From NCBI GenBank assembly GCA_025174535.1, contig JALBUN010000014.1, positions 124,001 to 188,000 of the forward strand: a DNA stretch of 64,000 nucleotides, written 5' to 3'. The stretch comes from Cantharellus purpuraceus (lineage: Eukaryota; Basidiomycota; Agaricomycetes; Cantharellales; Hydnaceae). Both the position numbers and the translations under genes were made by a program. Every line of letters starts with the position of its first letter. The stretch's first letter is position 1. The notes below the pieces were generated by a model. The model did no database searches. It was not told where the DNA came from and was given only the letters and a program-made list of their open reading frames with translations. This document shows positions 10,450-62,187 of this stretch, piece after piece.

Positions 10450-10880
10450 ACATATTTGCATGCTGTTCAAGTCTGTACAGATAGAACTACAACGTAGTAC
10501 ATGAGTAGTTGTAAAAATTGAAACATAACCAATTCCCCTACCTGAGTCGGTATAAAAAAAATATTACTGGCGTGAAGGTGGACGCGCCTTAATATGTTCG
10601 CTGTTGTGGACGTGGACAATAGGAAATGTCGAGGCATGAGTAGAGAAATGCAGCGGCACATACCTCACATGTATGTGCTTGTCGTTCAGACTCCGACAAA
10701 CTGAGATTCTTACTCTTACTCTTTGCTCCCACCATCACGTTGTTAGGTGAACTGAAGTCTCGCGCTCAGTTGTAAATCCTTACACTCTTCGTTCTTCTGC
10801 CACGTTCACCTACTCCCACCATCGGGCGGTTTTGGTTGTTAGGTGAGCTGAAGTCTCGCGCGCAACGTCCAAAACAACGA
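10450..10880. repeat. Terminus-type repeat plus two ~92-bp repeats before gene D
   Basis: 10450-10710 matches the reverse complement of the block-alpha left terminus and also 57.05-57.3 kb. Two forward ~92-bp copies follow (about 10750 and 10848), the second ending only ~20 bp before the gene D reading frame opens. Confidence 0.65.
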
Positions 10881-10894
10881 AACAAGGCAAGACG

Positions 10895-12619: not shown

Positions 12620-12927
12620 GCAGAAAAGGAATGTACATGGGGTTTTTAGGAAACTTGTAGAAACCCACGGACAAGGTTTTGAGCCCGAGTAGATTACAAC
12701 GAACGTACGGCCTCGCCATATCTTCTTATACATTCCTTACACCACCACAAAAACCCACACACCTTATACACGCTTTGCAAGACTGCAAAATTCCCGAAAA
12801 CATCTTGTATTCACTACTAACACTATGTATGGCAACGCAAGACTATACACTGTCTTGCAAGCACCGCCGACTCAAGCAAGGCTCCGCCGGTTTTCCTGAT
12901 CCAGACGGTCAACCGATCAGCTTGTAG

Positions 12928-14296
12928 TCAAAGACACACGCCTTGTCGCCACTGCTCCATATAGTCACTGCGTTCCTGCTCTTTCTTGCGATGGCGTTCC
13001 ACTGCGGCTGGAGAATTTCCCCAGAAGAAGAGCATTACATCATCCTCATCCCATTGTGCATGGTCATCCTTGGAGTCCATAACCCCCCCGGGCTGGTCTC
13101 CGGCTGCAACACTCCCAGCACCACCTTCCCTCGGACGCCTCGCCGCATCACGTTTTTGGATTGTGGATGCCCTATCATTCACTGTCTTTGTAGGTCCCAT
13201 GAGAGCCGGAGTAGGCACAGCTGGGCGAGGAATGTTGGGGCGCTTGTTAAGGACCTCTTTCCCGTGTCCCCACCACTTGACAGCAGCGGCACCATAATTG
13301 TAGTGCAGCAACAAGCCCGATGGCGTTAATTCTGGGGCAGGTCTCTTGAAAGCAGCGTCAATATTGTTTGGGGCGAAATACAATGCGCCCGGGCTTGGTT
13401 CTATCAGCCACTGCAGCGTATAACGCATGTTGCATGGGTAAGTGACCTCTTCAGGTAGCTCAACGGGTCGGTTGTTTTGGGGAATGTCAGTTGTAGCAAG
13501 AAAGTGGTTTGGAGTCTGAGAAGTGATGGGCTTGAAAAGGACCGATCAAATTTGGTCCGAAGAGACGCACCTTGAGCATCACAATGTTGCGTAGATCAAA
13601 CGCGGGATGGATTGAACAGGTTACAAAGACACCATTGCGAATATCGTTGATGTCCGTCATGTCGCCCACTTCCTCCCTATACTTTGGACGATTCTGTACG
13701 ATCAGCCAAAACCACTGAGGTGGAAGGGCAGGTGATCAGATATCATCCCAGCGCAATAATACTGTCGGGCATACCTCAGAGCCCCTGCTATAGGGAATGA
13801 TATGCATCCCACTTCCAAGAAAGGCATCAGATCCTGTGAACACACAACAAGTATCACGTTCGAGCAGGTTGTTGCGGAATTGATTGCGAGTGGCCGTGCT
13901 TCCCGAAGGCACGGTTGACCGTTGCTTAATTACTTCTAGGTCAATTGCCTGGCCAAGGCCTTTTCTCGACGAAAATCACACGCTCAGCATTTTGTTTTCA
14001 CAACGTATTTGATATAAAAACTCACCAGTACCCGCGGGTGTGTCATAATAGTACAAGCCTCCGTCATCCAGATCGCCGTTGAGGCCCAACGATGTAGTAC
14101 TGTCACCCTCCGTCAATGAGCCCTCAGCACCAAGGACGCACCAACCAAGGTAGGCAAGGTATTTCCGAGGTTTCAAACACAAAGAAGAGATGACTTTTAA
14201 AGGGATTTCGAGGTAGAACGGCGGATAGCGCACAAGCACGAGGCGAACATGGTCTGAGGGAATATCATCTTCGGATCCGGAATGGGAGTTAGACAT
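12928..14296 (-). CDS. HNH endonuclease-like protein, copy A
   Basis: Member of an agaricomycete HNH_2-type family. Exons: 14296-14026 (MSNSHSGSEDDIPSD, LYYYDTPAG), about 13964-13775, 13714-13571 and 13515-12928. The nuclease core reads RNNLLERDTCCVFTG, then GMHIIPYSRG, then DINDIRNGVFV and IHPAFDLRN, supplying the His, Asn and His of an HNH site and a Cys that could bind metal. The C-terminal exon encodes a conserved tail with HYNYGAAAVKWWGHGKE and DDVMLFFWGNSPAAVERH. The last two introns are in phase, but the obvious GT-AG choice for intron 1 does not keep frame (271-nt exon 1 against an exon needing phase 2), so either I have missed the true junction or the copy is damaged. Endonuclease activity is inferred. 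Confidence 0.65.
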
Positions 14297-14427
14297 GGTC
14301 CTTCTTTGCAATCGACTCGTGCCAGCAATTATACAAAGCAGATTGAGGCAGGGTCAAGGCGGCCTGACTTGGATAGAGGGAAGTTGAAACCGAAAGCCGG
14401 CGGCAAAACAAAGAGGATAATGCCTTA

Positions 14428-14740
14428 AGGATTTACAACTGAGCGCGAGGCTTCAGTTCACCTAAGAACCAGACTTACTTGAAGGTGGTAGGTGGCGGCA
14501 AAATGAGTTGCTTGTCGTTCAGACTCCGACAAACTCAGACTTTACTGTTACTCCTTGCTCCTACGTTCACCTACTCCTATCATTAAGTAGTTCTGGTTGT
14601 GAGGTGAACTGAAGTCTCGCGCTCAGTTGTGAACCCTTACACTCCTCGTTCTTCCGATACGTTTACCCACTCCCACCATCAAATAGTTCTGGTTGTTAGG
14701 TGAACTGAAGTCTCGCGCTCAGTTGTAAATCCTTACACTC
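14428..14740. repeat. ~92-bp repeats between HNH copy A and the LCB1 fragment
   Basis: One reverse core (14428-14455), a piece of the terminus repeat (14505-14535) and forward cores at about 14603 and 14707. They separate two divergently oriented genes. The equivalent spacer in the 60.9-63.9-kb duplicate (61.80-62.40 kb) has the same repeats plus LTR L4. Confidence 0.7.
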
Positions 14741-14794
14741 CTTACAGGAAGCCAACCCAGACGGTGGTTCTCGCTGTGCTATCCGGCAGTGGCT

Positions 14795-24536: not shown

Positions 24537-25320
24537 CTAGACATGCCAACACACATGAGAATAGAATAGGGGTGAGCGACATAGGACATACATGATTGCC
24601 TGGGGGTGAAGTACCATCCTTGAAATGGAGAACCTTGAATGGACAAATACCATTGTAGCATTGCAAATTGAAACTCTGCAGAGGATTTTAATTTGGTTGA
24701 GGAGATATACTGATTCAACTACCTGGCTCACAGTTTGCAATGCTTCCCTCACTCTGGCATCAATCAAATCCAGCTTGTCCTTGACTTGATCCAGCTTTCT
24801 ATCCACCTTCTTTTCCAGATTGTCTACCTTTTTCTCCAGATTGTCTACCTTTTTCTCCAGATTGTCTACCTTTTTCTCCAGATTGTCTACCTTTTTCTCC
24901 AGATTGTCTACCTTTTTCTCCAGATTGTCTACCTTTTTCTCCAGATTGTCTACCTTTTTCTCCAGATTGTCTACCTTTTTCTCCAGATTGTCTACCTTTT
25001 TCTCCAGATTGTCTACCTTTTTCTCCAGATCTTCAAGCCCTGTCTCCACCATCTTTTCCAGATTGTCTAGCCTTGTCTCCAACGGTTCTAATGCAGCTTG
25101 CATGGCACCATGGAACCAGGGCGGCGCCACAGCTGCAATTTCCTCAGTGTAATGTCTGCGTTCTAGGTAACATATCAGGACTCACCCTCAGCTGCATTTG
25201 TGCTAATTACTGCAGCTTGGTAGATATGGGCTCTTGCCAGATCATGCATTGTTGCAGTGCCAGGCCGGTGGGTCACTGCAAAACTCATATGAATGGGGAA
25301 TGCAAACAGTTGGCTGGCCA
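24537..25320 (-). CDS. Hypothetical coiled-coil protein with tandem heptads
   Basis: The main exon reads EEIAAVAPPWFHGAMQAALE, then LETRLDNLEK, then ten near-identical DNLEKKV heptads, then DRKLDQVKDKLDLIDARVRE. A probable upstream exon (about 25315-25190: GTATMHDLARAHIYQ) joins through a GTGAGT...GCAG intron near 25189-25157. Leu and Val in a heptad pattern predict a long parallel coiled coil. The C-terminus after VSQVVESVYLL probably runs into an intron, so the frame to 24537 is not the true end. Proteins starting PPWF...AMQAALEP with variable coiled coil occur in agaricomycetes as uncharacterised families, as far as I recall; function unknown. Confidence 0.5.
24811..25030 (-). repeat. 21-bp coding minisatellite, ten units
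   Basis: Ten almost perfect tandem 21-bp units, each encoding one DNLEKKV heptad, on the minus strand. Unit-to-unit identity is close to complete, which suggests recent expansion; copy number can change without a frame change. Confidence 0.95.
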
Positions 25321-33626: not shown

Positions 33627-33889
33627 TATTGGAATGTGGAACGTATACACATACCACAATGCGTCAACATGATTGTGGTTAAGCATGCCATGTTCCACTT
33701 GTCTCATCACTACTATTCCGCTGTTCCACACTCCACACTGGTGACCATATATATAGTGGCCACCAGTCATTCCTTCCCCTCAGTCGTATTCTCTACATAC
33801 TGACTGAGGTAAGGAATTAAGTCTTATTTATTTACTGTCGGTCCACTCATGTACTACGTCATACAGATCTGTCTGTACAGATTCTAACA
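33627..33889 (+). mobile_element. Copia-1 3' LTR (263 bp)
   Basis: TATTGGAA...TTCTAACA preceded by the polypurine tract GTGAGGGGGAG (a second copy of this tract lies ~55 bp upstream) and followed by the target duplication GTTGA (33890-33894). TATA-like box near 33747-33755. E1 33784-33808, 58-nt intron 33809-33866, X 33867-33880, then 9 nt to the end. It lacks the 54-bp spliced leader copy present in the 5' LTR. Confidence 0.9.
33778..33809 (+). promoter_or_regulatory. Leader stem-loop of the copia-1 3' LTR
   Basis: CCTCAGTC/GACTGAGG with GTAT/ATAC inside, about 30 bp after the TATA-like box. Confidence 0.7.
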
Positions 33890-35217
33890 GTTGACACCAC
33901 CGGTGGTGTAGTATTCGCAGAGCTCGTTGGTGGCACCCTTAAGGGCAACAAAGATACGTGCGAGATGATATAAGGAAGATGTCTTGGATAATTGAAGATG
34001 GGAGTGAGGGATTAAATAGCAGGGCGGTTGTGCCAAATGACACCTGCGATAGCGAGTTGACTTCCTGCAGAGGGATGAGAGGGGGAAGGTGATGATCAAA
34101 AGGAAGAGGATGTTAAGGAGGGTGCTGACCTACGACAGTTAAGAGGAAGGCGGGAAAAATGCCTTTCTTCTTGTTGGCCTCGTTGTAATTCCAAGTGTAA
34201 TAGTAAGCAGCCGCTTGGTACATGGCCTCACCGTTGGAGCCGCAGGCCTCCTTTCTTGCTTTGATGAGGAGAAGAGGATGGTTATCCTTGGACTTGAGGA
34301 CAGCATCCATGTCACTGGGATAGCTTGAACCTTTCCGCTTTGATATGGATTTGTTCAAATCATCATCGACAATTGGGGGAACCTTGTGACTACTAATCTG
34401 GAGGCCATAGTTGCAAAAGAGGTGGATGAGATCAGCAGTGCAGGACTGTTCAGAGGGATGATACTTGGCCATGGTTTTGGAGAGACTGTCGACAAAGGTA
34501 TTGTCGGCGGTGTTGATTTCGAGATCGAGGTCTTGATAGTCTTGGATGAACTTGGAGAAGACAGGGTGGTAGTGAAGGATGCTCATAGGTAAGGCAGCGC
34601 CTTCGGGGCGTTCATGGTAAAACATGGGATCGTTGGGGTCGGCCTGGGAGTGGCAAGAAGCGATGGCAATGGAGGAAGGGGCATGTATATCGGGGCGAGT
34701 TGCTTTATTGTGCCTGAGGCGGAGATTGTAGATGGGGTGGGCGAAGCTGCGAGGAGCGGAAGGAGGGGTAAAAGGAATGATGTACTGGGGTGTGGTGACA
34801 GGGACTGGGATGATGGGAAGAAAGGAATCAATATGATATGATAAGAGGAGGACGAGGATGATGAGACGAGAATGATGATGAATGAATAATGGATGATTAG
34901 GATGAAGGGTGAGAGACCGACCTATGACGACGTGGATGGCTTGCTCGTGGTTGGGATCGACAGGGTGAAGGGGCCAATGGGCGCCGATTCTGCGGTTGCG
35001 AAGGCGTATGGCGAGTGAGGGGTTGGAATCAAGACTAGCGAGGAAGGTTTTGACCATGTTGAGGATGTCATTGTCGCTGAGGCCGTCCGTGATAAGGAGG
35101 GGTGTGAGAGGCTGAAGAGAGGAGGGGTGAGAAGGGGGTGGATTCGGTTAGAAAGAGAGGGGACCTTGAGGATGGTCCAGTTATCAATGAATGTGTGGGA
35201 TTTTGGGATGGTGTCGC
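33890..35217 (-). pseudogene. Nuclease-kinase (Crinkler-like) gene, 5' half
   Basis: Minus-strand exons: 35217-35165 (DTIPKSHTFIDNWTILK), from about 35110 (LITDGLSDNDILNMVKTF...HEQAIHVVI), about 34758-34132 (YNLRLRHNKATRPD...IFPAFLLTVV) and about 34079-33890 (SQLAIAGVIWHNRPA; ARIFVALKGATNELCEYYTT in another frame). The third exon has a PD-(D/E)XK-like strand (HPLLLIKARKEACGSNGEA), but the position usually held by the catalytic Glu is Lys. A stop and a frame change follow in the last exon. The 3' half, a kinase-like domain, is at 51337 on the plus strand; the shared GTTGA/TCAAC duplication shows that copia-1 inserted between them. The start is lost beyond 35217. REase-plus-kinase fusions are known among eukaryotic Crinkler-type proteins; the role here is inferred. 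Confidence 0.6.
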
Positions 35218-37907: not shown

Positions 37908-40900
37908 CTAGTGGCGAGAGATACCCCGATCGCGTCGATCCCAATCGCGAAGGAGGTCGGGAGCGTTGCGAAGGTTCTTTCGCGGGAGCCACTCGTCATA
38001 TGATGAGTCGTATCCGATGAAACGCGTGAGGAGCTCCTGGACACGCCGGCCATTACGGGCCTTTCGCCATTGTTCACCGATGATGGACTCGACCTCGAAT
38101 TCTGGGAGTTGCGTGAAATCAGCGCGTTCGAGAGATCTGAGAGGTCGTGAACCGAAGGAAGGGGGTGAGGAGGAGTAGAGCTCGAGGTGAGCAATGTTAA
38201 GGACAGGGTGGAGCCCGTATGACGCGGGCATGCAAAGGCGATAGGTAGCCGGCCCTAATTTTTGTATGATATCAAAGGGGCCATCATATTTCATTTGGAG
38301 CTTCTTACCTAGGCCTTTCTGAGCATGCAATAGACTGAGGGAATGGGGATTGATGAGAACGCGATCGCCAACGTCGAATTCTTGAGCCAGACGACCGGTG
38401 TTGAAATTCTTTTGCTGAGCAACCTGCGCAAATTGCAGGGCTTCTCTAGCCTGAGATCGGTAAGTAGCTAATTCACTTAGGAAGTCCATAGCTTTCGTAC
38501 TTTCAACTTCATTGGCAGGGGACTTGATTAAATCAACGCGATCGACCGATCCAACTGGTCGCGGGGCCGGCGGGCTGGAAGGCCGGTGAACGCCGTGAGT
38601 AGATGAATGAATGTAGGAAGATGGAGTGCGTGGATGGTAGCCATACAGTAGAAATGCCGGCGCGAATCCAGTCGCGGAGTGTGGGAGGTTATTGTAGGAT
38701 AGAGCAAATGGAGAGAGGAGAGCCGCCCAGTTGTCGCGCGTCGGGCTTACATAAGAACGTAGTGCGGTTTCAAGCGTCTGGTTCAACACCTCAGTTTGAC
38801 CATCTGCTTGAGGGTGATAGGCTGTAGTTAGAGCTCTTCTAGTATTTATTTGCTTGCATATCTCTTTCCAGAAGGTGCTGGTCCATCTGGGATCTCTGTC
38901 GGATATAATTTGTTTGGGAATTCCATATTTGGATAGCACATGTTCAAACAGTATCCGAGCAGTTCCCTCCTCATTAATAGTGCTTTGAGTAGGGACAAAG
39001 ATGCCAAACTTTGTAAGTTTATCCACTATCACCAGGATGGAATCGTACCCATTGCTATCGGGTAATTCCATAATGAAGTCCATGGTGATAACTTCAAAAG
39101 GATTTTCTGGAATAGGTATGGGCTGCAACAGTCCAATAGGTGCGTGTCGCCTTGGTTTGGCTTTCTGGCAAATATCACAGCTTACAACAAACTTCTTGAC
39201 ATCTCTACTCATTCTAGGCCAATAGAAGGTAGAAGCCAGTTTGTTGTACGTTTTATGATAACCCGCATGAGCTCCTTCAGTGATTTCATCATGAATTTCA
39301 CTTAGAAGATTAGATTGCTCAGCCTTGGGTACACATAGCCTGTAATTGCCATTCCAATCTTCAAAGTAAAGCAATCCATCCTCATTTTCAAAAAAGAGTG
39401 GATGCTTCGGACTGATCCAATTAGACTCCTGTCGTAATTCAGATCTGACCCTTTTGAAGTAAGGATCTTTGGCATACGCATCAACTATTTTCTGAATCTC
39501 TTCCTGAGCAAGGCTAGAGACTAGATTATAGCCTTTGGCTGTCACGTATGGAATGGTGAAATCTTCTTCCAGGCTGGTATTGACTTGGATGGAAGAAGCA
39601 TGCACGTTCAGTGGAATTCTCTGGTTCTCTTCTTCATATGCAGCCATTAACATTAAAGTTCTGGCTTCAAAGTGAGGAGAGATATCAGAATAAAAATCCA
39701 CAAGTGGATCCTGTTCCGAGTCCAGGATAGTAGGAATGGAGTCATCAGAAGAAGGCCCATCTTGATATGGAACATTCCTTCTGAGTCTGGAAATAGGATC
39801 TACATTAGAGTGAACCCGTCCTGCTCGGTGTACGATTTTTAATTCAGGGTATGCAGCAAATACAGTTCCCCAAGTTAATAACCGCCGATTAACATTTTGG
39901 TAGGTCCGACTCCAGATGAGGGCTGCATGGTCTGTGATGGCTACTACTTTCTCCCCTTCAATGTAGGGTTGAAATTTGATAAGACCGTCTCGTAATGCAA
40001 GTGCCTCCCTTTCTGTAGGAGAGTAATTCCTTTCAGCTGGTTTCAAGGTACGAGACCAGTAAGCAATGACTCGTTCTACTGAAACCGTAGTGTTTTCAAA
40101 GTCTTTATCCCAAGTACCTGGCTTAGGGAGAGTTTCATCTTTTAACACAGGAATCACCAATTGTGGTACAGGTAATCCTTTGTCATAAGCTGATTTGAGT
40201 TTCTCATACCCTTTGGTACCTTTGAGATCTCTGATTTTGAGAGGTTGAATCTGCTGAAGTATAGCAGCGATTCCGACATCACATGCATCAGAGTAGACTC
40301 TATATCCGAGACCAGGAATGGCATACGCTCTGACTGGCGCACTGACAAGGGCATTTTTAGCCAAATCAAAGGCTTCTTGTTGAGTATTGCCCCATTCCCA
40401 AGTTGAATTCTTTTTGAGCAATTCAAACAAGGGAGCTACAATCCATGCATAGAATGGTATATATGAGGAGAAGTATACCACCATTCCGAGGAAGATTTGT
40501 AGGTCATGCACATTCTTTGGTTCTGCCAATTCCAGTATAGCATCTATCTTCTCCTTGTGAGTTGATAGACCTAACCGTGATACCTTTTGTCCTAACAGTA
40601 GCAATGACTGGTAGGCCAAATGGCACTTAGCAGGAGATAAGGTGATACCAGACTTTTCTATAGCTCCGAACACTTTGTCTAGATGATCCAAGTGTTCTTT
40701 GAATGTCTTGGAATATATGACAATATCATCAATATAGACCAGGGCAAACACCCATAGAAAAGGTGCTAGGACACCTTGCATCACTCTTTGAAAGACTGCA
40801 GGTCCATTCCGATACCCAAAGGGCATCTGTTTGAACTGATACAGTCCTCTATGAGTTCTGAATGCAGTTTTTTCTTTGGCACTGTCCAACATTTGCAGCT

Positions 40901-43900
40901 GTGTGAAACCCGCTAATGCATCCAAGGTGGATAACCAACGAGATCCAGTGAGTGCCTGCAAAATGGAATCTTGTCTTGGCAAGGGAAATTCATCCGGGAC
41001 CGCAATCTCATTGAGTTTCCTATAGTCTATACACATTCTTGGTTTCCCATTACGATAGGCTATAAGTGCTGGAAAACCCCAAGGACTTTTGGATGGTTCA
41101 ATGACTCCAAGACTGAGCCAAGCATCCATTTGCTTGTCAATGACTTCCCTTTTGGCAGGTGAGGCATTATAAGGAGGTAGTGAAATTTCTTTGGCCTCAG
41201 GCCTGAGATTGATTTCAACTTTTGCATCATAATTGCCAAGTCTGCCATCAAGACCAAATGCGTCTTTATGTGCCAGAACTGTATCTTGGAGAGCCTTCCT
41301 ATTGGCATCATTGAGCTCTGGTGAGAAGTCAATTTCATCCAACAGTTGGTTTTCAGGAACATCCTCAGGGGGAATTTCCTGAGCCTTAGGTCCTCCTTGT
41401 ACCACCTCTCCATCTGATTCAAGAGAGGCAACAGTAGGTACCGCACCAGTCTCAAAGTTCTGTTGAGCAAGAGCTTTTATGAGTCTGGCGTGAGAGAGAC
41501 AAGTCTCTAATTGAGTCTGGTTCAAATTAGAAGTCCGATCCAGCCAATTGGAAGGATTTCTAGCATGACCCAGGAGTTGTCCTTGATGTATAGTAACTGG
41601 TTGTGATGAAAAATTGCTAACATGTAGGCACGGGTTATTCCGAGATACAATTGCATCTGAGATGCCATAGAAATCTTCAGGCCCATGATTGGAGTGAAGC
41701 ACTTTTTCCACATAAACTTCATTACTATTCCCAGGGAAATAGATAGAAGCAGGAATTAGAGAAGCAGTTTCAGGAGGAATTGTGACGGGATGTAAGGCCC
41801 TAACACTTGAATCCGAAATGCATGCTCTAATCCGTTTCCGAGATTTCTTAATACGTCTATGAGCCTTGAACTTTGCAGTTAGAGATGCAAGGTCAGGAAG
41901 GGCTCTTATTTTAAAGGTGTGACCATTCTCATCCAATAAGGGTGAGCTCACTGAGTTCTCAATCTTGGCTTTCCGTCCAGTATTACCAAACATAAGATAG
42001 CTATCTGAGCCTTCTCTTATAAGCGAGATAGAGTACTGATCAGCAAAATCATTCCCAAGAATGACAGGGGTAGTCATGCCTTTGACCACATAAGCTTCAA
42101 CTTCAATCTGAACTGGTCCAGAGTCAGAGTCAAAGTAAATGGGCACCGTAACGTATCCAGAAATTTTGGATGTGCCAGTAACTTGTATCAAGTTAATTTT
42201 CTGACCTGTTTTGATCTTAGGAGGATTCTCCATAGAGCAAAGAGCTTTCTGAGAGATAAGGGTTATGTCTGAACCAGAATCAGCTACAAGGGTAGTTTGA
42301 TTCTTTCCATATTCTCCCAGCCAAACATTAGTAGTGGTTGCAGAAGATCCAAGGAAGGCACAGCCTGCTGGTCTGGACATGAAACGCTTGAGTTTAATCA
42401 AGGAGTTAGGAGCCCAACTAGTAAGCTTAGAATTCCTTAGGAAAGCAGCTACATGTTTGGAATCTTTCATTAACCTTCTCCTCTCTTGACGAGATTTAGG
42501 AGTGAATGTCTCAGAAAAAGAGTTTTCCAGAGACAAAGGCTCAGAAGATTTTTCTCTATTAGGTATGGATCCCCCCAGTCGGGACATACTTTCCAGCAAG
42601 CTCATGGCTGGTTTAGCAAGTTGACAATGTGCCTCTGTATCCTGAGCAGATTCCTGTTGATCCGATGAAGGTTCTTCAGGGATATTCTCAGTTGCAACAT
42701 TATTAACATGAGCATTGTCTGAACTTAAATCCACTTCTGATTCATGAAGTGATTCAAGGTACATATCCTCATAGGCAAGGTCTGCATTAGCTTCTTCATT
42801 AGAAACCTTGTAACGTGTATGGGCAGAGCGAGATGCTGAACTGGCATGTTTGCACTCATTATCCCAATGCTTGTTACTGCCACAATGCCTGCAAGGTCTA
42901 GCTCCTTTGGATTCAGGTGTGGAATTTTTAGACACATTAGAATCATCCCGAGGGAATTTTGGAGGATTCAATTTGGATGACCATCCAACCAGATGAGCTC
43001 TAGCATCTCTAAAAGATCTGTTTGAGTCAAACCTAGGTTTGGTTTGATGCAAAGAATTTTCCAAATTTCTAATACGTCTTTCCAGGTTGTCTCCTGAAGA
43101 GAAAGGAGCATGTGACAATGATTCCTCGTGATACTTGATAGCAGTTTGGAATTCCACTGCAGATGAACACCTGTGAGCATCAATGACTGTGTGCCAATAT
43201 GGTGGAGCACCATTCATGATTTCCAATATAAGCTCTGAGTCTGACAGCTTGCTGACCAGTCTCAATAGCTCTGACTTTCTAACGTAATACTCACTAGGAG
43301 TCTCATTAGTAAAGCCAGGCTCTCTGAAAGTAGCACGAGTTGCTCTAGCTTTCTGCCTATCCAACCAGGCTCTGTTCATATAGTATGAACCAATGACTTC
43401 TCTGATGGACTTCCAGTCCTCAGTTGCTTCTTGGCGATATGACAATGGTAAGGAGAAAAACCATCTCTCAGCTCCTTTACGCAACCGCAAATGGATAATT
43501 TGTCCCAATTGCTTGAAGACCATAGGAGATCGCTGAGCCAAATGATTTACTTTCAATATCCATTGAGCCAAACTGTCAGGGTTTCCATCCCACTCAGGGA
43601 CTAAGTCCTGACGCAACTTGTTATCAAAGTAAGCTTCCAGCTTGCTCTGAGTCACTGGAGCGTCTAATCCGAGATTAGGATTTCTCTGATCAAGATCCCC
43701 CCAGTCTGGACTATGACCATAACCTCCACCATCACCTCCATCAGGAGGACCTGAGCCTCCATGCCTACCCAGAGGGGGAGGATTACTCCTTCCACTTCTA
43801 TGTGGCAATGATGGTCTAGGCAAAAATGGATTAGGTGTATGAGGGGGACCAGAAGATCCGTCATCATCAGGAGGTTCTCCTCCAGGAGGTGGAGCACCTC

Positions 43901-45371
43901 CTCCAGAAGCTCCATAAGTTCCGTGAGGAACCCTAATGGATTCTGGAATGCCTAAAGTACCCCTGCTCTGAACTTGAGGAGGAGTATAGAACATTTCTTC
44001 CAAACCTGCAGATCCCGTAAGTTTACTAGGATCCTGATGGTAAGGAGAATTGAAAAGAGTAGAGGGTCTGGGACCACGATTGTAAACCGCAGACTGTCTC
44101 TGTCTAATCCGTTCATGATCAACTGGAAATTTTTCTCCTTGATCCAATCTGGAAATCAAGGGAGCTTCCTTAACAGTATAGGCAACAGTTGACTGCTGAG
44201 CATCCCTGACAGGCATAGCTGCAAGAGTGGGAAGATCATGTCCAAGGACAGGATTCACCGATGCATTAATGACTTTAGCTTCATAAAAACTAGTATCCGC
44301 AGCAACCTTTCTCTGCAAAGCAGCTTGGGCAGCAGCGAAGCGAATTTTGAAACCATTAATGTCAGAAGACATCTCAGAAATGTCTGGGAGAGCAGGAGAC
44401 AGAAAGTCATCCTTTACTGGTTTCCAAGAACCCTTGTACTTGGATACAGCATCCCAATAAAATGCCAAAAAGTTTTCTACATCTTCACGTAGTGTAACAC
44501 AAAGCACTTCCAGGTCTTTGGAACTCCAAAGGGAGTCACTAGGCCATTCCGAAGGCAATGTAGGGACAGTAGGAGGAGGAAGTTTCATCTGCTGCAGAAC
44601 ACTTTCTCTCTCATTTGCAATATGATTAAGAGTGTCTAACAGTTGCTTATACTTCCATGGATCAAGATAATACCCAGTACTACCATGCTGACTAACTCGT
44701 CCAGGATGTCCGAGCAGTACCACATTGAGTAACGCTAATTCTTTCCTGAAGAGTCCAGTAGCAAGGCGATTCAGAGCTCTAGTACCTGGTGCTTCCGCAC
44801 GATTAAAGCTCATCTCTGCAATGCTAAGGAGTGAATCTCTTCTGGAAGAGAGTAGGGGATCAAGTCTGACCTCTCTCCGTACTCTTGCTGCACTGAAGCT
44901 TTTCAAAGGCTTACCAGGCACTACGAAGACATTTTGTAATGGTCCTGTGATCAGGGGTCCATCAAAAGTCCAATTGGTAAGTGCATGGTTAGTCTGATCA
45001 ACTTCCACAGCAAAAGAGGCATCAGCAGCACTAATCTCTTCATCCGTAGTAAATGTCTGGTCAAGATCATTCACAGGAGTGAGTGGGGATCTAGTGTGCA
45101 AGAAGCCAGGAGTGATAGGGGCAATAGGTCGCTCTGGTTGAGCAGCCAAAGGAGTAGACGGGTCGTCCTCGAGTTGTTGTTGTTGTCGAATTGTTGAAGT
45201 AGACATGTTGCTCAGCTTGAATGAGGTCAACTTGTCACGAGGTCGATACGATTCGAAACGAGTTTGTATACGAGTTGGTGTTGGATAAGGGTTTAGATAA
45301 AGAGGAGAGTTAGGATTAGAGGAGGAGGGCAGACGAGTGTGACTATAGAACTTGTCTTCTGGAAATTCCAA
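37908..45371 (-). CDS. gag-pol: Gypsy Gag-Pol polyprotein with chromodomain (2487 aa)
   Basis: One uninterrupted frame. Gag has a capsid-like stretch (about 600-760) and a CCHC knuckle CRHCGSNKHWDNEC (about 825-838). Aspartic protease LVADSGSDITLIS (about 1028) with downstream VILGNDFA. Reverse transcriptase with CIDYRKLN, QMPFGYRNGPAVFQ and YIDDIVIY (about 1545). RNase H with VYSDACDVGIAAIL and TEREALALRDGL. Integrase zinc region HAGYHKTYNKLA...CDICQKAK (about 2035-2065) and catalytic D (ITMDFI), D (SDRDPRW) and E (GQTEVLNQ, about 2190). C-terminal chromodomain FEVESIIGEQW...FIGYDSSYDEWLPRKNL (about 2427-2475), which in chromoviruses guides integration to marked chromatin. Gag and Pol share one frame, so their ratio must be set after translation. 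A second ATG at codon 55 (MSTSTIRQQQ) may be the real start. All catalytic residues are present. Confidence 0.95.
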   Translation of the reverse strand: MEFPEDKFYSHTRLPSSSNPNSPLYLNPYPTPTRIQTRFESYRPRDKLTSFKLSNMSTSTIRQQQQLEDDPSTPLAAQPERPIAPITPGFLHTRSPLTPVNDLDQTFTTDEEISAADASFAVEVDQTNHALTNWTFDGPLITGPLQNVFVVPGKPLKSFSAARVRREVRLDPLLSSRRDSLLSIAEMSFNRAEAPGTRALNRLATGLFRKELALLNVVLLGHPGRVSQHGSTGYYLDPWKYKQLLDTLNHIANERESVLQQMKLPPPTVPTLPSEWPSDSLWSSKDLEVLCVTLREDVENFLAFYWDAVSKYKGSWKPVKDDFLSPALPDISEMSSDINGFKIRFAAAQAALQRKVAADTSFYEAKVINASVNPVLGHDLPTLAAMPVRDAQQSTVAYTVKEAPLISRLDQGEKFPVDHERIRQRQSAVYNRGPRPSTLFNSPYHQDPSKLTGSAGLEEMFYTPPQVQSRGTLGIPESIRVPHGTYGASGGGAPPPGGEPPDDDGSSGPPHTPNPFLPRPSLPHRSGRSNPPPLGRHGGSGPPDGGDGGGYGHSPDWGDLDQRNPNLGLDAPVTQSKLEAYFDNKLRQDLVPEWDGNPDSLAQWILKVNHLAQRSPMVFKQLGQIIHLRLRKGAERWFFSLPLSYRQEATEDWKSIREVIGSYYMNRAWLDRQKARATRATFREPGFTNETPSEYYVRKSELLRLVSKLSDSELILEIMNGAPPYWHTVIDAHRCSSAVEFQTAIKYHEESLSHAPFSSGDNLERRIRNLENSLHQTKPRFDSNRSFRDARAHLVGWSSKLNPPKFPRDDSNVSKNSTPESKGARPCRHCGSNKHWDNECKHASSASRSAHTRYKVSNEEANADLAYEDMYLESLHESEVDLSSDNAHVNNVATENIPEEPSSDQQESAQDTEAHCQLAKPAMSLLESMSRLGGSIPNREKSSEPLSLENSFSETFTPKSRQERRRLMKDSKHVAAFLRNSKLTSWAPNSLIKLKRFMSRPAGCAFLGSSATTTNVWLGEYGKNQTTLVADSGSDITLISQKALCSMENPPKIKTGQKINLIQVTGTSKISGYVTVPIYFDSDSGPVQIEVEAYVVKGMTTPVILGNDFADQYSISLIREGSDSYLMFGNTGRKAKIENSVSSPLLDENGHTFKIRALPDLASLTAKFKAHRRIKKSRKRIRACISDSSVRALHPVTIPPETASLIPASIYFPGNSNEVYVEKVLHSNHGPEDFYGISDAIVSRNNPCLHVSNFSSQPVTIHQGQLLGHARNPSNWLDRTSNLNQTQLETCLSHARLIKALAQQNFETGAVPTVASLESDGEVVQGGPKAQEIPPEDVPENQLLDEIDFSPELNDANRKALQDTVLAHKDAFGLDGRLGNYDAKVEINLRPEAKEISLPPYNASPAKREVIDKQMDAWLSLGVIEPSKSPWGFPALIAYRNGKPRMCIDYRKLNEIAVPDEFPLPRQDSILQALTGSRWLSTLDALAGFTQLQMLDSAKEKTAFRTHRGLYQFKQMPFGYRNGPAVFQRVMQGVLAPFLWVFALVYIDDIVIYSKTFKEHLDHLDKVFGAIEKSGITLSPAKCHLAYQSLLLLGQKVSRLGLSTHKEKIDAILELAEPKNVHDLQIFLGMVVYFSSYIPFYAWIVAPLFELLKKNSTWEWGNTQQEAFDLAKNALVSAPVRAYAIPGLGYRVYSDACDVGIAAILQQIQPLKIRDLKGTKGYEKLKSAYDKGLPVPQLVIPVLKDETLPKPGTWDKDFENTTVSVERVIAYWSRTLKPAERNYSPTEREALALRDGLIKFQPYIEGEKVVAITDHAALIWSRTYQNVNRRLLTWGTVFAAYPELKIVHRAGRVHSNVDPISRLRRNVPYQDGPSSDDSIPTILDSEQDPLVDFYSDISPHFEARTLMLMAAYEEENQRIPLNVHASSIQVNTSLEEDFTIPYVTAKGYNLVSSLAQEEIQKIVDAYAKDPYFKRVRSELRQESNWISPKHPLFFENEDGLLYFEDWNGNYRLCVPKAEQSNLLSEIHDEITEGAHAGYHKTYNKLASTFYWPRMSRDVKKFVVSCDICQKAKPRRHAPIGLLQPIPIPENPFEVITMDFIMELPDSNGYDSILVIVDKLTKFGIFVPTQSTINEEGTARILFEHVLSKYGIPKQIISDRDPRWTSTFWKEICKQINTRRALTTAYHPQADGQTEVLNQTLETALRSYVSPTRDNWAALLSPFALSYNNLPHSATGFAPAFLLYGYHPRTPSSYIHSSTHGVHRPSSPPAPRPVGSVDRVDLIKSPANEVESTKAMDFLSELATYRSQAREALQFAQVAQQKNFNTGRLAQEFDVGDRVLINPHSLSLLHAQKGLGKKLQMKYDGPFDIIQKLGPATYRLCMPASYGLHPVLNIAHLELYSSSPPSFGSRPLRSLERADFTQLPEFEVESIIGEQWRKARNGRRVQELLTRFIGYDSSYDEWLPRKNLRNAPDLLRDWDRRDRGISRH

Positions 45372-48447: not shown

Positions 48448-50976
48448 TCAGATCTCACGTTTGGCCCGCTCAAGCAGTGATTCATGAGCAATGCCCCGCA
48501 TTGCAGCTCCTGCAGCAGATGCCTTTTTGGGACGGTTTGAGTGTCGAGGTAAACTAATAGGTTGCTCATTAGGTAAGTCAATTTCGGTCTCCCTGTTTCC
48601 ATCCTGTTGATCAGGTTCCTCCGCCTCGGTTGATTGTCCAGGGCTATGATGCACAAATGGGATTGGCTGTTCAATATCGTTGTCCTGATCTTCTTGTATG
48701 TCTGTGCCAACCTCCACTCCTGGACGATAAGGCCGTGGTCTGGCATCTTGGGACACGATGAAGGAGACATGTCTCGACACGATGATACGACCAGTGGGGG
48801 GGTAATAGCAGCGGTAAGCTTTCAAGGTCTGTGAGTACCCAATGAGGACCCCCTCAACTGATCGATTGTATATCTTCGGACGATGTTCAGATTGGAGGAG
48901 AATGAATGCCCTGCAACCAATCTCTCGCAAGTGTGATACGTTTGGTTTTGAACCAAAGTATGCCTCATGTGGGGTCATGTTCTTCAAGGTACGTGTGGGG
49001 ATTCGATCCTTGATATATGCAACAGTTTTGATACATTCCCCCCAAAGCTTTGGTGGGAACTTGTTTTCAGACATGATTGCACGAGCATGGTTGAACAGAG
49101 TTCGATGGAGACGCTCTGCCTTCCCATTCTGTGCTGAGGAATAAGGTGCAGTTGTTTGATGTTTAATGCCATCATCTCGTAGGTATTTCTCAAACTCTTT
49201 TGATGTATATTCACCCCCGTTATCTGTGCGGAATATGTTAACTGTGAGATTTGTTTCACACTCAACACAAATCCTCCATTCTTTGAAGCAATCGAATGCA
49301 TCTGCTTTTCGTTTGAGAATGTAGACCCATATTTTTTGGGAGAAATCATCTATCATGTTGAGTGTATACATGCCTCCATGCGGTGTCTGCACGTCTTCTG
49401 GACCAGTGATATCTGAGAAAACTTTTTCAAGTAATCTCTTTGCCCTCCCCCCCTCCCTCACCCTCGGAACTGGTGTTCTTGTCTGCTTGCCAAGAACACA
49501 GTGGTCACAAAGGGGCGGGAGGTTAGAAAGATTTGTGGGCATACCAGTGACAAGGTCCTTTTCAGCCATGCGAATAATGGCAGGGTAGCCGACATGTCCA
49601 AGTCGCCTATGCCATGTTTCAAGGTCAGGTGCTGCACGTGCAAGGAGTAGATGTTCAACAGTGATGTTGTCAGATAAGTGATACAAGCCAGTGCCAGTCC
49701 TGATGCCTTCAGCGATAGTGCGAGATCCACGTACAATGGAACAATTGGTAGCAGTAAACATTGCTGACAGACCCATATCACTAAGCCTTCCAATGGAGAT
49801 GAGGCGAAGCCGTGCGTCTGGAATGTACAGTGCATCACAAAGCAGAAGCTGTCGGCCCTTGCCACACCTTAGTTTGATGGTCCCTACTGCCATGGCTGAT
49901 ATACTTGACCCATTGATACCACGAATTTGACGAGGAGAAATAGGGCAAATGTCAGAGAAGTCGTCCCGGTTAGGTGAGCAGTGACTAGTTGCACCAGAAT
50001 CAAAGTAGTATGGTGGGGAAGTTATGGCAGATGCAATGACATGATCCCAGTTTACAGAGCAATCAGTGGATTGAGAATGGTTGTGATCTGAGAAGTCTTG
50101 AAGAACGGCACATGACTCTGAGCCAGAGTCACTATCTGAGACCTTGGAAATTGCTGCATGAGCTTGCTCCTTTTTCTTTTTATCACCGCCCTTGTGTTTC
50201 TTTTCCTTGGCCGTTTTCCACCAGTCGGGAGCCTTCCCTTCACTTCCCCCACCCTTTTCCCAGCATTTCTCGATTGTGTGACTGGTTTTCTCACAATTTG
50301 AGCACTTTAAGGATTTGTTGGAACCCTTCGTCTGCTTCTGTCTGGCAGCAAGGAGGGTATCTTCATTTTTGATCAGCTCTCGATGGTGTGAATCTTGTGT
50401 TTCGGCTTCAATATGTTGGATGATACTAGAGGGGGTGAGTGTGGATGAAGAGACTACGAGGATTTTATGCAGGTCATCGAAGTCACTGTTGCACATTGCG
50501 TGGAGCAGAATCCCAACAGTCCATTCGTCTTTGGTAGGTGCCCCATCACTGTAGATCGCCTCCATATAGTCTTTGAGGTTGGTGAGAACTGAGGAAGCGG
50601 TGGTGGCGGTGGTGAAATGCAACCGCATAGCATTTTGAAGAGCATTAAATTTTGAGTTTACACCACTTTGATAGGTTTTCTTTTTCAGGTGCTCCCAGGC
50701 CGTCGAGGCCGTAGTGTAGCGTTCAATTTCCTGAGCAAGAGAATCTTCAACGACTTGGCAAAGTGCCCCCACGATCCGGTCATTTATTTCATTCCAGTCA
50801 ATCAACTTGGCGGCATCTGTAGGAGGCTGTTTTCTGTCTCCATCAACATAGGACCACATGCCACTTGAGCGAAGAAGTGCGCGACATTTTCTGGACCATT
50901 GTGGCCAGGTGCCAATAGTGAGTATACCAACTGTTTTTTCAGTAAGTCTAATGTCTGTCATGTTGAGTATGCACAA
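48448..50976 (-). pseudogene. gag-pol: Copia-1 Gag-protease-integrase frame (842 codons)
   Basis: Starts MCILNMTDIRLTEKTVG; Gag part IGTWPQWSRKCRALLRS and FNALQNAMRLHFTT; CCHC knuckle CSNCEKTSHTIEKC; protease YYFDSGATSHCSP; integrase zinc region WHRRLGHVGYPA...LCDHCVLGKQT and catalytic D, D, E in FSDITGPED, FRTDNGGEYTSKEF and AQNGKAERLHRTL. The frame is open to a TGA at 48448-48450 after ERAKREI; the RT part then continues in the next piece, so this stop is probably a secondary CGA-to-TGA change. With the downstream lesions and the gypsy insertion the element cannot move by itself. Confidence 0.9.
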
Positions 50977-51004: not shown

Positions 51005-51019
51005 GGGAAGCCCATAACC
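51005..51019 (-). promoter_or_regulatory. Copia-1 primer binding site (half initiator-Met tRNA)
   Basis: GGTTATGGGCTTCCC directly after the 5' LTR on the minus strand; its first ten bases equal those of the copia-2 site. Confidence 0.75.
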
Positions 51020-51336
51020 TGTTAGAATCTGTACAGACAGATCTCAGTCAGTATGTAGAGAATATGACTATATTCCAAGTACCTGTACAGACAGATCTGT
51101 ACGACGTAGTACATGAGTGGACCGACAGTAAATAAATAAGACTTAATTCCTTACCTCAGTCAGTATGTAGAGAATACGACTGAGGGGAAGGAATGACTGG
51201 TGGCCACTATATATATGGTCACCAGTGTGGAGTGTGGAACAGCGGAATAGTAGTGATGAGACAAGTGGAACATGGCATGCTTAACCACAATCATGTTGAC
51301 GCATTGTGGTATGTGTATACGTTCCACATTCCAATA
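51020..51336 (-). mobile_element. Copia-1 5' LTR (317 bp)
   Basis: TATTGGAA...TTCTAACA in element sense; flank 51337-51341 TCAAC is the complement of the GTTGA after the 3' LTR. E1 51179-51155, 58-nt intron 51154-51097, X 51096-51083, linker 51082-51068, second intron-less copy 51067-51029, then the same final 9 nt as in the 3' LTR. The 54-bp difference from the 3' LTR is exactly linker plus second copy. Confidence 0.95.
51154..51185 (-). promoter_or_regulatory. Leader stem-loop of the copia-1 5' LTR
   Basis: CCTCAGTC/GACTGAGG with GTAT/ATAC, about 30 bp after the TATA-like box near 51208-51216. Confidence 0.7.
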
Positions 51337-51989: not shown

Positions 51990-54438
51990 TCCAGAATGAG
52001 AATTAGATATGGCCCTTCTTTGCACTCGACTCGTGCCAGAAATTATACAGAGCAGATTGAGGCAGGATCAAGGCGATCTAATCCAGCGCTCGGTGTTTCA
52101 CACCTGTATACAGCTTTGCATTCCGACGCGAATTTGTAGTACACCTACCTAAGTAGACTTGAAGGGCCCCTTGCTCGTCCTAGCATTAGAATATTAGTCA
52201 CAGGCGCAAACACGGCATGGATGCGTGATGTAAAAAGCTCGAATAAACATAACGACTTTCTCAAATTCTCACATCCGAAGATTATTTATTGTAGATCCTA
52301 TCTGTTATCAATAAACCAACTCCACTCAACAGTCCACCTAACACCCCGACGGCTTCCAAGCGGCACACGTGCCCTTATAAGACAAAACGCTCAAATTTGG
52401 AAATAGGATCAGTGCCAGTAATTAGGGACAGATGGGAAATGACCGTGGAGCGTCGCAACCACAAGTGTAATTGAATACAAGATGTGTTCACTAATTTTGC
52501 AGTCGTGCAAGCGTATACGAGACGTGTCCGTGTCTGTTGCAGTCGTGCAAGGCGTATACGAGAGGTGTTCATGTCTCTTACAGTTGTGCAAGGAATAAAA
52601 TTGACAACGGACGGTGACGGTGATGTACGCTTGAAACTCGTGGATGATGTTGGGACGAGTAGTAAGGTCAACCCCAGCAACTATTAGTACGACTGCCGGA
52701 TACAACTGAGCGCAAGCAGGGCACAGTGGTGTAGATGAGAGGGAGAAAGTACCAGGACGAGTATGCTTGATTGCACCTTCGTCTTGTTAAGGATTTACAA
52801 CTGAGAGCAAGACTTCAGTTCACCTAACCAGAACTACTTGGTGGTAGGAGGAGTGGGTGAACGTGGCGGAAGAACGAGGAGCGAAAGGATTCACAACTGA
52901 GCGCGAGATTTCAGTTCACCTAACAACCAGAACTATTTGATGGTGGGAGTGGGTGAACGTGGTGGAAGAACGAGTGTAAGGATTCACAACTGAGCGCGAG
53001 GCTTCAAGTCACCTCACAACGGAACTACTTGATGGTGGGAGTAGACGAACGTGGGAGCAAGGAGTAACAGTCAAGTCTGAGTTTGTCGGACAAGCGCTCT
53101 TCGTTTTGCCGCCGTCTCCCTCCCACCTTCAAGTAGGTCTGGTCCTTGGGTGAACTGAAGCCTCGCGGTTTTAAATCCTCAAGGCCTTACACTCTTTGTT
53201 TTTGCCGCCGGCTTTCGATTTCAATTCCACCCTCTATGCAGACTCGCGGATTGGACCCAGGCGAACTGATGCCTCGCGCTCAGTTGTAAAATCCTTAAGG
53301 CCTTATCCTCTTTGTTTTTACCGCCGGCTTTCGATTTCCAACTCCACCGTCTATGCAGACTCGCGGATTGGACTCAGGTGAACCGAAGCCTCGCGCTCAG
53401 TTGTGAATCCTTACACTCGTTCTTCCACCACGTTCACCCACTCCCACCATCAAATAGTTCTGGTTGTTAGGTGAACTGAAATCTCGCGCTCAGTTGTGAA
53501 TCCTTTCGCTCCTCGTTCTTCCGCCACGTTCACCCACTCCTCCTACCACCAAGTAGTTCTGGTTAGGTGAACTGAAGTCTTGCTCTCAGTTGTAAATCCT
53601 TAACAAGACGAAGGTGCAATCAAGCATACTCGTCCTGGTACTTTCTCCCTCTCATCTACACCACTGTGCCCTGCTTGCGCTCAGTTGTATCCGGCAGTCG
53701 TACTAATAGTTGCTGGGGTTGACCTTACTACTCGTCCCAACATCATCCACGAGTTTCAAGCGTACATCACCGTCACCGTCCGTTGTCAATTTTATTCCTT
53801 GCACAACTGTAAGAGACATGAGCACGTCTCGTATACGCATGCACGACTGCAAAATTAGTGAACACATCTTGTATTCAATCATCAGGCACTTGTGACTGCG
53901 ATGCTTCACGGTCATTTCCCATCTGTCCATAATTACTGGCACTGGTCCTATTCCCAAATTTGAGCGTTTTGTCTTATAAGGGCACGTGTGCCGCTTGGAA
54001 GCCGTCGGGGTGTTAGGTGGACTGTTGAGTGGAGTTGGATTATTGATGACGGATAGGATCTGCAATAGATAATCTTCGGATTTGAGAATTTGAGAAGTCG
54101 TTATGTTTACTCGAGCTTTGTAAATCACGCATCCATGCCGTGTTTGCGCCTGTGACCAATATTCTAATGCAAGCGAATTTATGAGAAAGGTCATGATCAG
54201 TAGTTTTCTCCAAGCTTTTCCGCACACAAGTATACATCTCAGTGTTTGGGCCTGTGACCAGTATTCTAATGCAAGGACGAGCAAGGGGCCCTTCAAGTAC
54301 ACAAGTGCATAACCAATGCGGGTCGGAATGCAGAGCTGAGTACAGGTTTGAAACACCGAGCGCTGGATTAGGCCGCCTTGATCCTGCCTCAATATGCTTT
54401 GTATAACTTCTGACACGAGTCGATTGCAAAGAAGGGCC
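51990..54438. repeat. Large imperfect palindrome
   Basis: About 51995-53060 matches the reverse complement of about 53400-54445 with scattered differences and small indels (a ~80-bp segment near 54220-54270 is extra in the right arm). Both arms end at the HNH start region; the left one has ATA in place of the ATG. The arms include reverse (52.79-53.02 kb) and forward (53.39-53.60 kb) ~92-bp repeats; the centre (53.14-53.40 kb) has two more forward copies. The minus-strand ORF 53703-54440 is not convincing. Confidence 0.75.
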
Positions 54439-56999: not shown

Positions 57000-57310
57000 A
57001 GTGATTTACCCCCTGCAGTTGTTTTTCATGAGTAGTTCTTGTGTGACTAGCTTTTTTGATATTAGTTACGTATTTGCAAGTCTGTACAGATAGAACTGTA
57101 CAACGTAGTACATGAGTAGTTGTAAAGATAGAAACGTAACCAACTCCCCGACCTGGGTCGGTATAAAGTGAATATTACTTGTGTGAAGATAGACACACCT
57201 TCATATGTTCGCTGTTGTGGACGTGGACAGTAGGAAATGTCGTGGCATGAGTAGAGAAATGCAGCAGCTCATACCTCACATGTGCTTGTCGTTCAGACTC
57301 CGACAAACTC
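57000..57310. repeat. Terminus-type repeat
   Basis: Duplicate of 10380-10710; includes the GCGGCACATACCTCAC-like segment (here degenerate) and TTCAGACTCCGACAAACTC. Confidence 0.65.
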
Positions 57311-57344
57311 AGATTTTACTGTTACTCCTTGCTTCTATGTTCAC

Positions 57345-58190
57345 CCACTCCCACCATCAAGTGGTTCTGGTCGATAGGTGAACTGAAGCCTCGCGCTCAG
57401 TTGCGAATCCTTAGACTCGTCGTTCTTCCGCTACGTCCACCCACTCCCACCATCAAGTAGTGCTCATTTTAAGGTGAACTGAAGTCTCGCGCTCAGTTAT
57501 GAGTCCTTAGACTCCTCGTTTTTCCGCCACGTTCACTCACTCCCACCATCGGGTCGTTCTGGATGTTAGGTTCAATGAACCCTCGCGCTCAGTTGTGAAT
57601 CCTTAGACTCCTCGTTCTTCCGCCACGTTCACCCACTCCCACCATCAAGTACTTCTGGTGAACTGAAGTCTCGCGCTCAGTTGTGAATCCTCAGGCTCTT
57701 CGTTCTTCTGCCCACTCCCACCATCAAGTATTCTGGTTAGGTGAAACTGAAGTTTCGCGCTCAGTTGTAACTCCTTACACTCGTTCTTCCACCACGTTCA
57801 TCACTCCCATCATCAAGTAGTTCTGGTTGTTAGGTGAACTGAAGTCTCGTGCTCAGTTGTGAATCCTTAGACTCCTTGTTTTCCGCCACGTTCACCCACT
57901 ACCCACATCAAGTCGTTCTGGATATTAGGTTCAATGAAGCCTCGCGCTCAGTTGTGAATCCTTAGACTCGTTTTTCCGCCACGTTCACCCACTCCCACCG
58001 TCAAGTAGTTCTGGTTGTTAGGTGAACTGAAGTCTCGCGCTCAGTTGTGAATCCTTAGACTCCTCGTTCTTCCGCCACGTTCACCCACTCCCACCAAGTG
58101 GTTCTGGTTGTTAGGTGCTGAAGTCTCGCGCTCATTGTTAATCCTTAGACTCCTCGTTTTCCCGCCACGTTTACCCACTCTCATCTTCAA
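57345..58190 (+). repeat. Tandem array of the ~92-bp repeat, nine units
   Basis: Nine forward cores at about 57380, 57476, 57575, 57658, 57738, 57835, 57931, 58023 and 58112; spacing 80-99 bp. Each unit has the core AACTGAAGTCTCGCGCTCAG, then GTGAATCCTTAGACTC, CGTTCTTCCGCCACGTTCA and CCCACTCCCACCATCAAGTA. Largest array in the window. Confidence 0.9.
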
Positions 58191-58254
58191 GTAGCCTAGT
58201 GGTTGCTGGGGTGGACATTACTACTCGTCTCAGCATCCAGAATACGTCTTACGA

Positions 58255-61877: not shown

Positions 61878-62187
61878 TTTTGGATACTGAATAATAAAGC
61901 TCAGTCCGTATATTATGGATACGGCTTGTTTAATCTACCTGAATAATAAAGCTATACAAGATGGATATAAGCAATGGGTAAAGATAATAAGTGTCAATGT
62001 TTCTCACCTCAGTCCGTATATTATGGATACGGCTGAGGGTGAGGAAACCATTACAGAAGTATTATATACGTCTGTAAAAGAAAATAGGGAACGGAGTTCC
62101 GACGGGTATCCGATTCCGTGGTGTGTCATTAATGCGGACATACTCAGCACATGTGCTAATACTGCACATATATTCTATATTCCAACA
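61878..62187 (-). mobile_element. Solo copia-type LTR L4 (310 bp)
   Basis: TGTTGGAA...TATCCAAAA in minus sense with target duplication GAGTG (61873-61877 and 62188-62192). TATA-like box near 62062-62068. E1 62032-62008, 56-nt intron 62007-61952, X 61951-61939, linker 61938-61925, intron-less second copy 61924-61887 (identical to E1 and X), final 9 nt. Confidence 0.85.
62007..62038 (-). promoter_or_regulatory. Leader stem-loop of LTR L4
   Basis: CCTCAG...CTGAGG outer pairing and CCGTAT/ATACGG inner pairing, downstream of the TATA-like box. Confidence 0.7.

Follow-up and report, generated by a model that had tools for sequence, protein, structure and literature searches.

The window, by which we mean the whole stretch of 64,000 nucleotides analysed here, holds a copia-type element, copia-1, whose two LTRs lie on opposite strands, and the leaders of further LTRs. 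In the 5' LTR of copia-1 a short segment, E1, is followed by a candidate intron, a micro-exon X and a linker, and then by a second copy in which the same two segments (E1' and X') are joined directly. This layout, E1-intron-X-linker-E1'X', is referred to as form A; form B has the intron and X without a second copy, and in form C E1 is directly joined to X. The features are listed below.

51020-51336, minus strand: 5' LTR of copia-1, form A, 317 nt, with putative intron and apparently spliced second copy; GTTGA on its outer side
51155-51181, minus strand: E1 of copia-1, 27 nt, from the likely RNA start (the A of CTCAG) to the donor
51097-51154, minus strand: candidate leader intron of copia-1, 58 nt, GTAAGG...TACAG
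51083-51096, minus strand: micro-exon X of copia-1, 14 nt
51070-51082, minus strand: linker body of copia-1, 13 nt, starting with GT
51029-51069, minus strand: second, intron-less copy E1'X' of copia-1 (E1' 51069-51043, X' 51042-51029)
51010-51019, minus strand: primer binding site GGTTATGGGC of copia-1, adjoining the 5' LTR and presumably of the half-tRNA type
48451-50976, minus strand: gag-integrase reading frame in the 5' part of copia-1 (Pfam gag_2, gag_pre-integrs, Pol_BBD, rve, SH3)
33627-33889, plus strand: 3' LTR of copia-1, form B, 263 nt, with putative intron and X, without linker and second copy (E1 33782-33808, intron 33809-33866, X 33867-33880)
33890-33894: target duplication GTTGA, directly after the 3' LTR of copia-1
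3896-4054, plus strand: L1 leader, form A (E1 3896-3920, intron 3921-3971, X 3972-3981, linker body 3982-3995, E1'X' 3996-4030, U5 4031-4054)
7819-7984, plus strand: L3 leader, form A (E1 7819-7845, intron 7846-7903, X 7904-7919, linker body 7920-7932, E1'X' 7933-7975, U5 7976-7984)
61878-62034, minus strand: L4 leader, form A (E1 62034-62008, intron 62007-61952, X 61951-61939, linker body 61938-61927, E1'X' 61926-61887, U5 61886-61878)
5498-5619, minus strand: leader of a further LTR of another family, form B (E1 5616-5587, intron 5586-5528, X 5527-5512, end at about 5498; bounds counted by hand)

Pfam finds copia-type gag, gag-pre-integrase and integrase in this order in the minus-strand frame at 48451-50976. 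The nearest relatives of this frame also carry PF07727, which we take to be RVT_2. Its relatives in named fungi include Rhodofomes roseus, Grifola frondosa and Trametes pubescens, which makes a basidiomycete host likely. With this gag-integrase order, a primer binding site, and paired LTRs flanked by a 5-bp target duplication, the elements are copia-type LTR retrotransposons. The LTR at 33.6 kb, on the plus strand while the 5' LTR is on the minus strand, was considered as a separate element and rejected, since GTTGA stands at both outer ends. This, together with a single differing site in the 263 columns shared by the 5' and 3' LTRs, indicates that the two belong to one insertion that has since been split by rearrangement. 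A gypsy-type element lies between the two opposite-oriented halves of copia-1 (window 28119-51336); its frame at 37911-45371 carries RVT_1, RNase H and an integrase zinc finger, with a chromodomain match below its cut-off, and its direct repeats stand at 35218 and 45505, with a third copy at 28119. The opposite orientation of the copia-1 halves around this element suggests a later inversion. Elsewhere the window holds an array of 21-bp tandem units (24739-25090) and, in many copies, a roughly 96-bp repeat with AACTGAGCGCGAGACTTCAGTTCACCTAA or a near variant (3073-3349, 10739-14769, 52565-53609 and 57283-58196).

Read directly from the sequence, the four form-A leaders of the window contain a GT...AG segment of 51-58 nt and an X of 10-16 nt. 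The preliminary description had reported the order E1-intron-X-linker-E1'-X' in four LTRs, and it is present in all four at the places given, to the base; in each, E1' is joined to X' without the intron, so the second copy is exactly what splicing of the first would give. X' ends 9 nt before the LTR end in three of them, as described, and 24 nt before it in L1, and the copia-1 3' LTR does end without linker and second copy. Two points are amended. The linker starts with GT, but the AG that had been taken as its end is better assigned to the first two bases of the copy, since E1 itself starts with AG and has CTC before it. The four LTRs, which had been called independent, fall into four leader clusters of one related group (the L3 and L4 leaders form one cluster at a looser cut-off) and are not four separate inventions.

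The layout is far more widespread than had been claimed. All genome searches were made in one genome, the window's own (40.15 Mb, 50 contigs), where DNA searches with the four window leaders gave at least 27, at least 40, at least 41 and at least 43 matches. The palindrome CTCAGYC-N13..19-GRCTGAG occurs 207 times in this genome, against 2 occurrences of the reversed pattern. A slightly wider pattern, applied to the retrieved part of the genome and so to only some of the 207 sites, yielded 185 hairpins. GGTTATGGGC or a near variant lies downstream of 34 of these 185, three of the matches belonging to a second copy or lying beyond the end of a 3' LTR. Orientation was assigned to 163 hairpins; the 22 left out include second copies with a linker ending in CTCAG. 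Among the 163 oriented leaders, 69 are form A (assigned by script), 26 form B and 43 form C (both assigned by eye), and 25 are of other or damaged form, namely one intron-less repeated leader, one form A with a 5'-deleted intron and 23 other or truncated ones. For 30 of the 43 form-C leaders X is known from form-A copies in the same cluster, and the other 13 were assigned by analogy. Clustering at 82% identity gave 14 clusters with at least two members and 17 single leaders; over the 14, form A occurs in 11, form C in 11 and form B in 7. The census sites are not all separate insertions, since segmental duplicates (C16/C22/C43 and C4/C6) are counted in.

Several leaders depart from these forms. 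The leader of L044 (about 1547-1755), outside the 163, has the intron followed by two linker-E1-X units, and that at C1:3152620 (minus strand, locus L074) has four E1-X units and three linkers and no intron. No form A was found in the clusters F8, with five sites, and F10, with three; E1 is directly joined to X in all five F8 sites and two of the three F10 sites, the third having a donor and being truncated. F8 and F10 are possibly lineages with fixed intron loss. Outside this genome, a protein scan of viral contigs yielded no relative that could be confirmed, and one contig from a pattern scan outside the genome (L224) was set aside as a chance match, with no second copy after the hairpin in 441 nt.

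The borders of the second copy were analysed in 55 fully parsed form-A LTRs, which comprise 15 types by E1 and X; the form-A sites left unparsed have damaged second copies or short flanks. The parser demanded AG at the end of X and, after E1', a string recurring before the linker, and it demanded neither GT after X nor AG at +1. Over the 55 LTRs the copy-to-copy match is 0.39 at -1 and 1.00 at +1, with 0.84-1.00 inside E1 where measured. At the donor G it drops from 1.00 to 0.00, it recovers at the AG preceding X, and beyond X it drops from 1.00 to 0.01. The copy breaks sharply at +1, at the GT and at the AG in all 15 types, and these borders, together with the excess of the palindrome over its reversed pattern, speak against a chance pattern.

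The segment between E1 and X is 48-63 nt long in the 15 types. A GT donor is present in all of them (GTGAG in seven, GTTCG and GTTTG in two each, four others once each) and a YAG acceptor in 14, the exception being a 2-nt X/X' offset in one type. The branch-site motif CTRAY occurs in the last part of the segment in 7 of the 15 types, against 2.2 ± 1.4 in shuffled sequences; a looser motif is found in 13 (8.0 ± 1.7 shuffled) and the loosest, YTNAY, in all 15 (12.6 ± 1.4). Judged by its sequence, the segment carries the donor, branch-site motif and acceptor of a spliceosomal intron, and form C and E1'X' would be traces of splicing in DNA only. That these LTRs have an ordinary repeat structure, with GT and AG at its ends by chance and no intron, appears barely credible in view of these donors, acceptors and lengths, a branch-site motif above shuffles, and an exact intron-less copy in 15 of 15 types (although the types were supplied by LTRs parsed as form A).

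In 11 of the 15 types the copy begins (CTC|AG) 31-37 nt after the first T of a TATA box; the box was sought 22-60 nt before +1 and the other four types gave no match. The preliminary description had placed the start of E1 at the expected RNA start after a TATA-like box. We likewise infer that the A of CTCAG, which we take to fit the initiator consensus, is the likely RNA start. The donor follows 24-30 nt after it. The linker, 13-22 nt long including the AG, starts with GT in all 15 types; this GT after X is donor-like in each, although a linker of that length is too short for an intron; the GT may be a second donor or a U1 site.

Could the repeat have come first? Reverse transcription might have doubled R into E1-X-linker-E1-X, the intron being gained later in the first copy only. 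Formally, form A amounts to two repeat units of which the first contains an intron, and an intron-less repeated form does exist at C1:3152620. That form is one leader among 163, however, and may be derived, and the intron would have to have been gained exactly at the unit's internal joint in a common ancestor. We regard this order of events as distinctly improbable.

The two copies within an LTR are alike. E1 and E1' differ on average by 1.13 of 26.5 nt and are identical in 18 of the 55 LTRs, X and X' by 0.16 of 13.1 nt with identity in 47, and CpG decay makes up 31 of the 62 E1/E1' differences. Between types of equal length, E1 differs at 1-8 nt. The type's own letter stands in both copies in 77 of 82 differing E1 columns and 96 of 100 X columns, counts that are biased to identity by the use of one representative per type with the fewest copy differences and that come from type pairs which are not independent. 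Most kinds of E1/E1' difference are confined to one LTR (27 of 29 non-CpG and 20 of 25 CpG kinds); the two non-CpG kinds found in both LTRs are adjacent and have the look of a single earlier CpG with two different decay products. The families themselves are far apart. Seven pieces of 1.2 kb were taken from the expected reverse transcriptase region and compared by their longest open frames, their identity as reverse transcriptase being judged by eye. Among six of them 13 pairs are 28-75% identical over 113-329 aa and two pairs gave no match, while the seventh, L222, matched itself only. With differences in E1 and X this small and reverse transcriptases down to 28% identical, the two copies must have been kept alike, and the layout must be older than the families or have spread among them. 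The copies are not reset at every insertion, since both LTRs of the element C9:1085636/1090955 show the same two CpG-type copy differences, one in E1, the other in X, and these probably predate the insertion.

Ten insertions were found with both LTRs and matching 5-bp target duplications (in one, four of the five bases agree). Left out of this set are a C4 element and its C6 duplicate, both with truncated 3' LTRs, and a C22 duplicate of one C/C element. Written with the 5' LTR first, four insertions are A/A (one of them with its 3' LTR cut short when another element inserted later) and two are C/C; the pairs A/C, C/A, B/C and A/B each occur once. Unlike LTRs, copia-1 with its 317 and 263 nt (A/B) included, are found in 4 of 10 insertions and in both directions.

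The preliminary description had derived the second copy from cDNA of a spliced leader and, from the contrast between the two copia-1 LTRs, had concluded that its insertion was recent. The intron marks speak for the first part, and the copy, which starts at the likely cap site and crosses a perfect splice junction, is the product that would be expected of spliced-leader cDNA. The second part finds no support. The LTRs do differ, but a recent loss of the unit from the copia-1 3' LTR appears more likely than a recent insertion into the 5' LTR, since form A leads in copia-1's own leader cluster (8 of 12) and is present in 11 of 14 clusters, and the linker is conserved within families. More generally, form A is most simply ancestral to B and C, as the linker is common within families and absent from both; neither could regain it, since nothing is left in B or C to rebuild it from. 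The difference between the copia-1 LTRs had also been presented as a puzzle; it stands, but it is not special to copia-1, and plus-strand transfer of the HIV-1 type would produce such pairs. In the parts of the HIV-1 study covered here, 26 of 88 proviruses have unlike LTRs, and the proposed cause is misaligned synthesis with subsequent plus-strand transfer from one co-packaged genome to the other (PMC9278108). The copia-1 group shares with HIV-1 the occurrence of unlike LTRs in one insertion, whereas the HIV-1 deletions reported in those parts vary in place and here the same precise modules are missing each time.

In fold predictions the palindrome around the likely RNA start hides the splice donor in 3' RNA and leaves it more open in 5' RNA. 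The predicted mean cost of opening the donor (-3 to +6) in the 15 types is 6.1 kcal/mol for RNA that begins at +1 and 14.2 kcal/mol with 40 nt of upstream sequence, and it is higher with the upstream sequence in all 94 form-A and form-B sites. Shuffling the upstream 40 nt lowers the predicted cost to 8.6 kcal/mol, and 14 of the 15 types then reach 0.05 or less; when CTC is kept and the rest shuffled, 12.7 of the 14.2 kcal/mol remain, with 3 of 15 types at 0.05 or less, and in 3 of 15 types the observed cost is below the mean of this control. The predicted effect comes mainly from the CTC arm, which is fixed by the search pattern. As a weak measure, the mean unpaired probability of the donor falls from 0.22 to 0.16 with the upstream sequence and is lower in 71 of the 94 sites, but it rose in clusters F1 and F7; the opening cost gives the clearer signal of the two. 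Beyond the fixed arms the inner hairpin averages -12.1 kcal/mol against -10.5 kcal/mol in shuffles (smallest fraction as stable, 0.017), barely above shuffles, and we claim no covariation. Form C has the hairpin too, although it lacks a donor at that place. A similar arrangement is known from foamy virus, where SHAPE showed that 13 upstream nucleotides make the donor region fold differently in 5' and 3' LTR RNA (PMC3694450, in part). The foamy virus donor stands in R, close to where the RNA begins, and is probably blocked at the 3' end by sequence before +1 that 3' LTR RNA alone contains; in the copia-1 group the putative donor would have a similar place and may be masked in a similar way. A switch of the foamy-virus kind would also have U1 binding suppress 5' polyadenylation. 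The parts of that paper covered describe no intron wholly within the LTR and no stored spliced copy, whereas in the copia-1 group donor and acceptor both lie in the LTR.

We lean, narrowly, towards a model in which the element RNA would be spliced at its 5' end and unspliced at its 3' end, with the stored E1'X' as the terminal repeat for strand transfer. RNA would start at the A of CTCAG, inside the palindrome CTCAGYC...GRCTGAG|GT. The transcript of the 5' LTR would be without the CTC arm, so that its donor would be more open and its leader spliced (E1-X), while RNA entering the 3' LTR would hold the whole palindrome, the donor would be hidden and the intron retained; RNA 3' cleavage would occur beyond E1' or E1'X'. 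Spliced 5' and unspliced 3' ends would by themselves share only E1, and an LTR ending in E1'X' would give both ends E1X, with E1'X' in the role of R, the terminal repeat. Minus-strand strong-stop DNA made on the spliced 5' end would pair with E1'X' and restore the intron-bearing LTR (form A). Pairing with the upstream E1 would give the intron-less form C, pairing through X would give form B, and an extra unit, as in L044 and C1:3152620, would result if the tip of an E1-X-linker-E1'-X' cDNA paired with E1'. An efficient loss step, such as slippage of the repeat, or an early strand transfer must be added to this scheme, since a YAG acceptor before X predicts one extra unit per cycle and extra units are present in these two LTRs only. 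The alternative acceptor at E1'|X' ends in GAG, which is a poor acceptor site. It also counts against a spliced genome that B and C could arise by deletion between direct repeats without splicing, as do the copy differences that both LTRs of C9:1085636/1090955 have in common.

Another reading we consider unlikely but not negligible: the layout would have arisen once from spliced cDNA, the genome RNA would now be unspliced, and form A would be inherited through a long R reaching from E1 to E1'. Splicing would then serve the messenger only, and B and C would be deletions between the X/X' and E1/E1' repeats, made during reverse transcription or later in the chromosome. An unspliced genome explains the single unit in form A (69 of 163 leaders with one; L044, with more, lies outside them), the unlike LTRs in 4 of 10 insertions, as slippage may strike either LTR, and the copy differences common to both LTRs of C9:1085636/1090955. 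Taken alone, however, it provides no upkeep of E1=E1' and X=X' across reverse transcriptases down to 28% identical, unless slippage or conversion is very frequent, and no single deletion turns a one-unit form A into C1:3152620, which has kept the linker. With slippage added, an unspliced genome would do better than the spliced-genome model on the one-unit limit and worse on the co-evolution of the copies.

Returning to the spliced-genome model, we put forward as a tentative extension, possible rather than probable, that the intron would be self-restoring: the LTR would store its spliced leader as R, the palindrome cut by the RNA start would limit splicing to the 5' end, and the intron would survive a cycle through spliced RNA. 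Passage through spliced RNA is the classical route of intron loss in retrotransposons, and intron loss has served as proof of an RNA intermediate. Penelope-like elements keep introns in a retroelement with terminal repeats (pseudo-LTRs), but they are target-primed and have no tRNA-primed strand transfer. Ogre, EVADE and BARE1, as described in the parts of PMC12786077 covered here, are likewise LTR retrotransposons that use splicing; their introns lie outside the LTR and their splicing yields subgenomic RNA (EVADE loses its protease part), whereas here the putative intron lies in the LTR leader. A lentiviral vector (PMC5542766, in part) was not used as a precedent for an LTR intron, its intron being in an engineered leader. 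Among the top full-text matches, judged by title and the start of the abstract and drawn mostly from outside subscription journals, no description of an LTR with an intron and a stored spliced copy was found.

If the model is true, an LTR that carries both an intron and its spliced product would be a way round the intron-loss rule, and the idea developed for foamy virus, that the RNA start decides which LTR is spliced, would extend to copia elements of fungi. Forms A, B and C would then be a natural record of strand-transfer sites.
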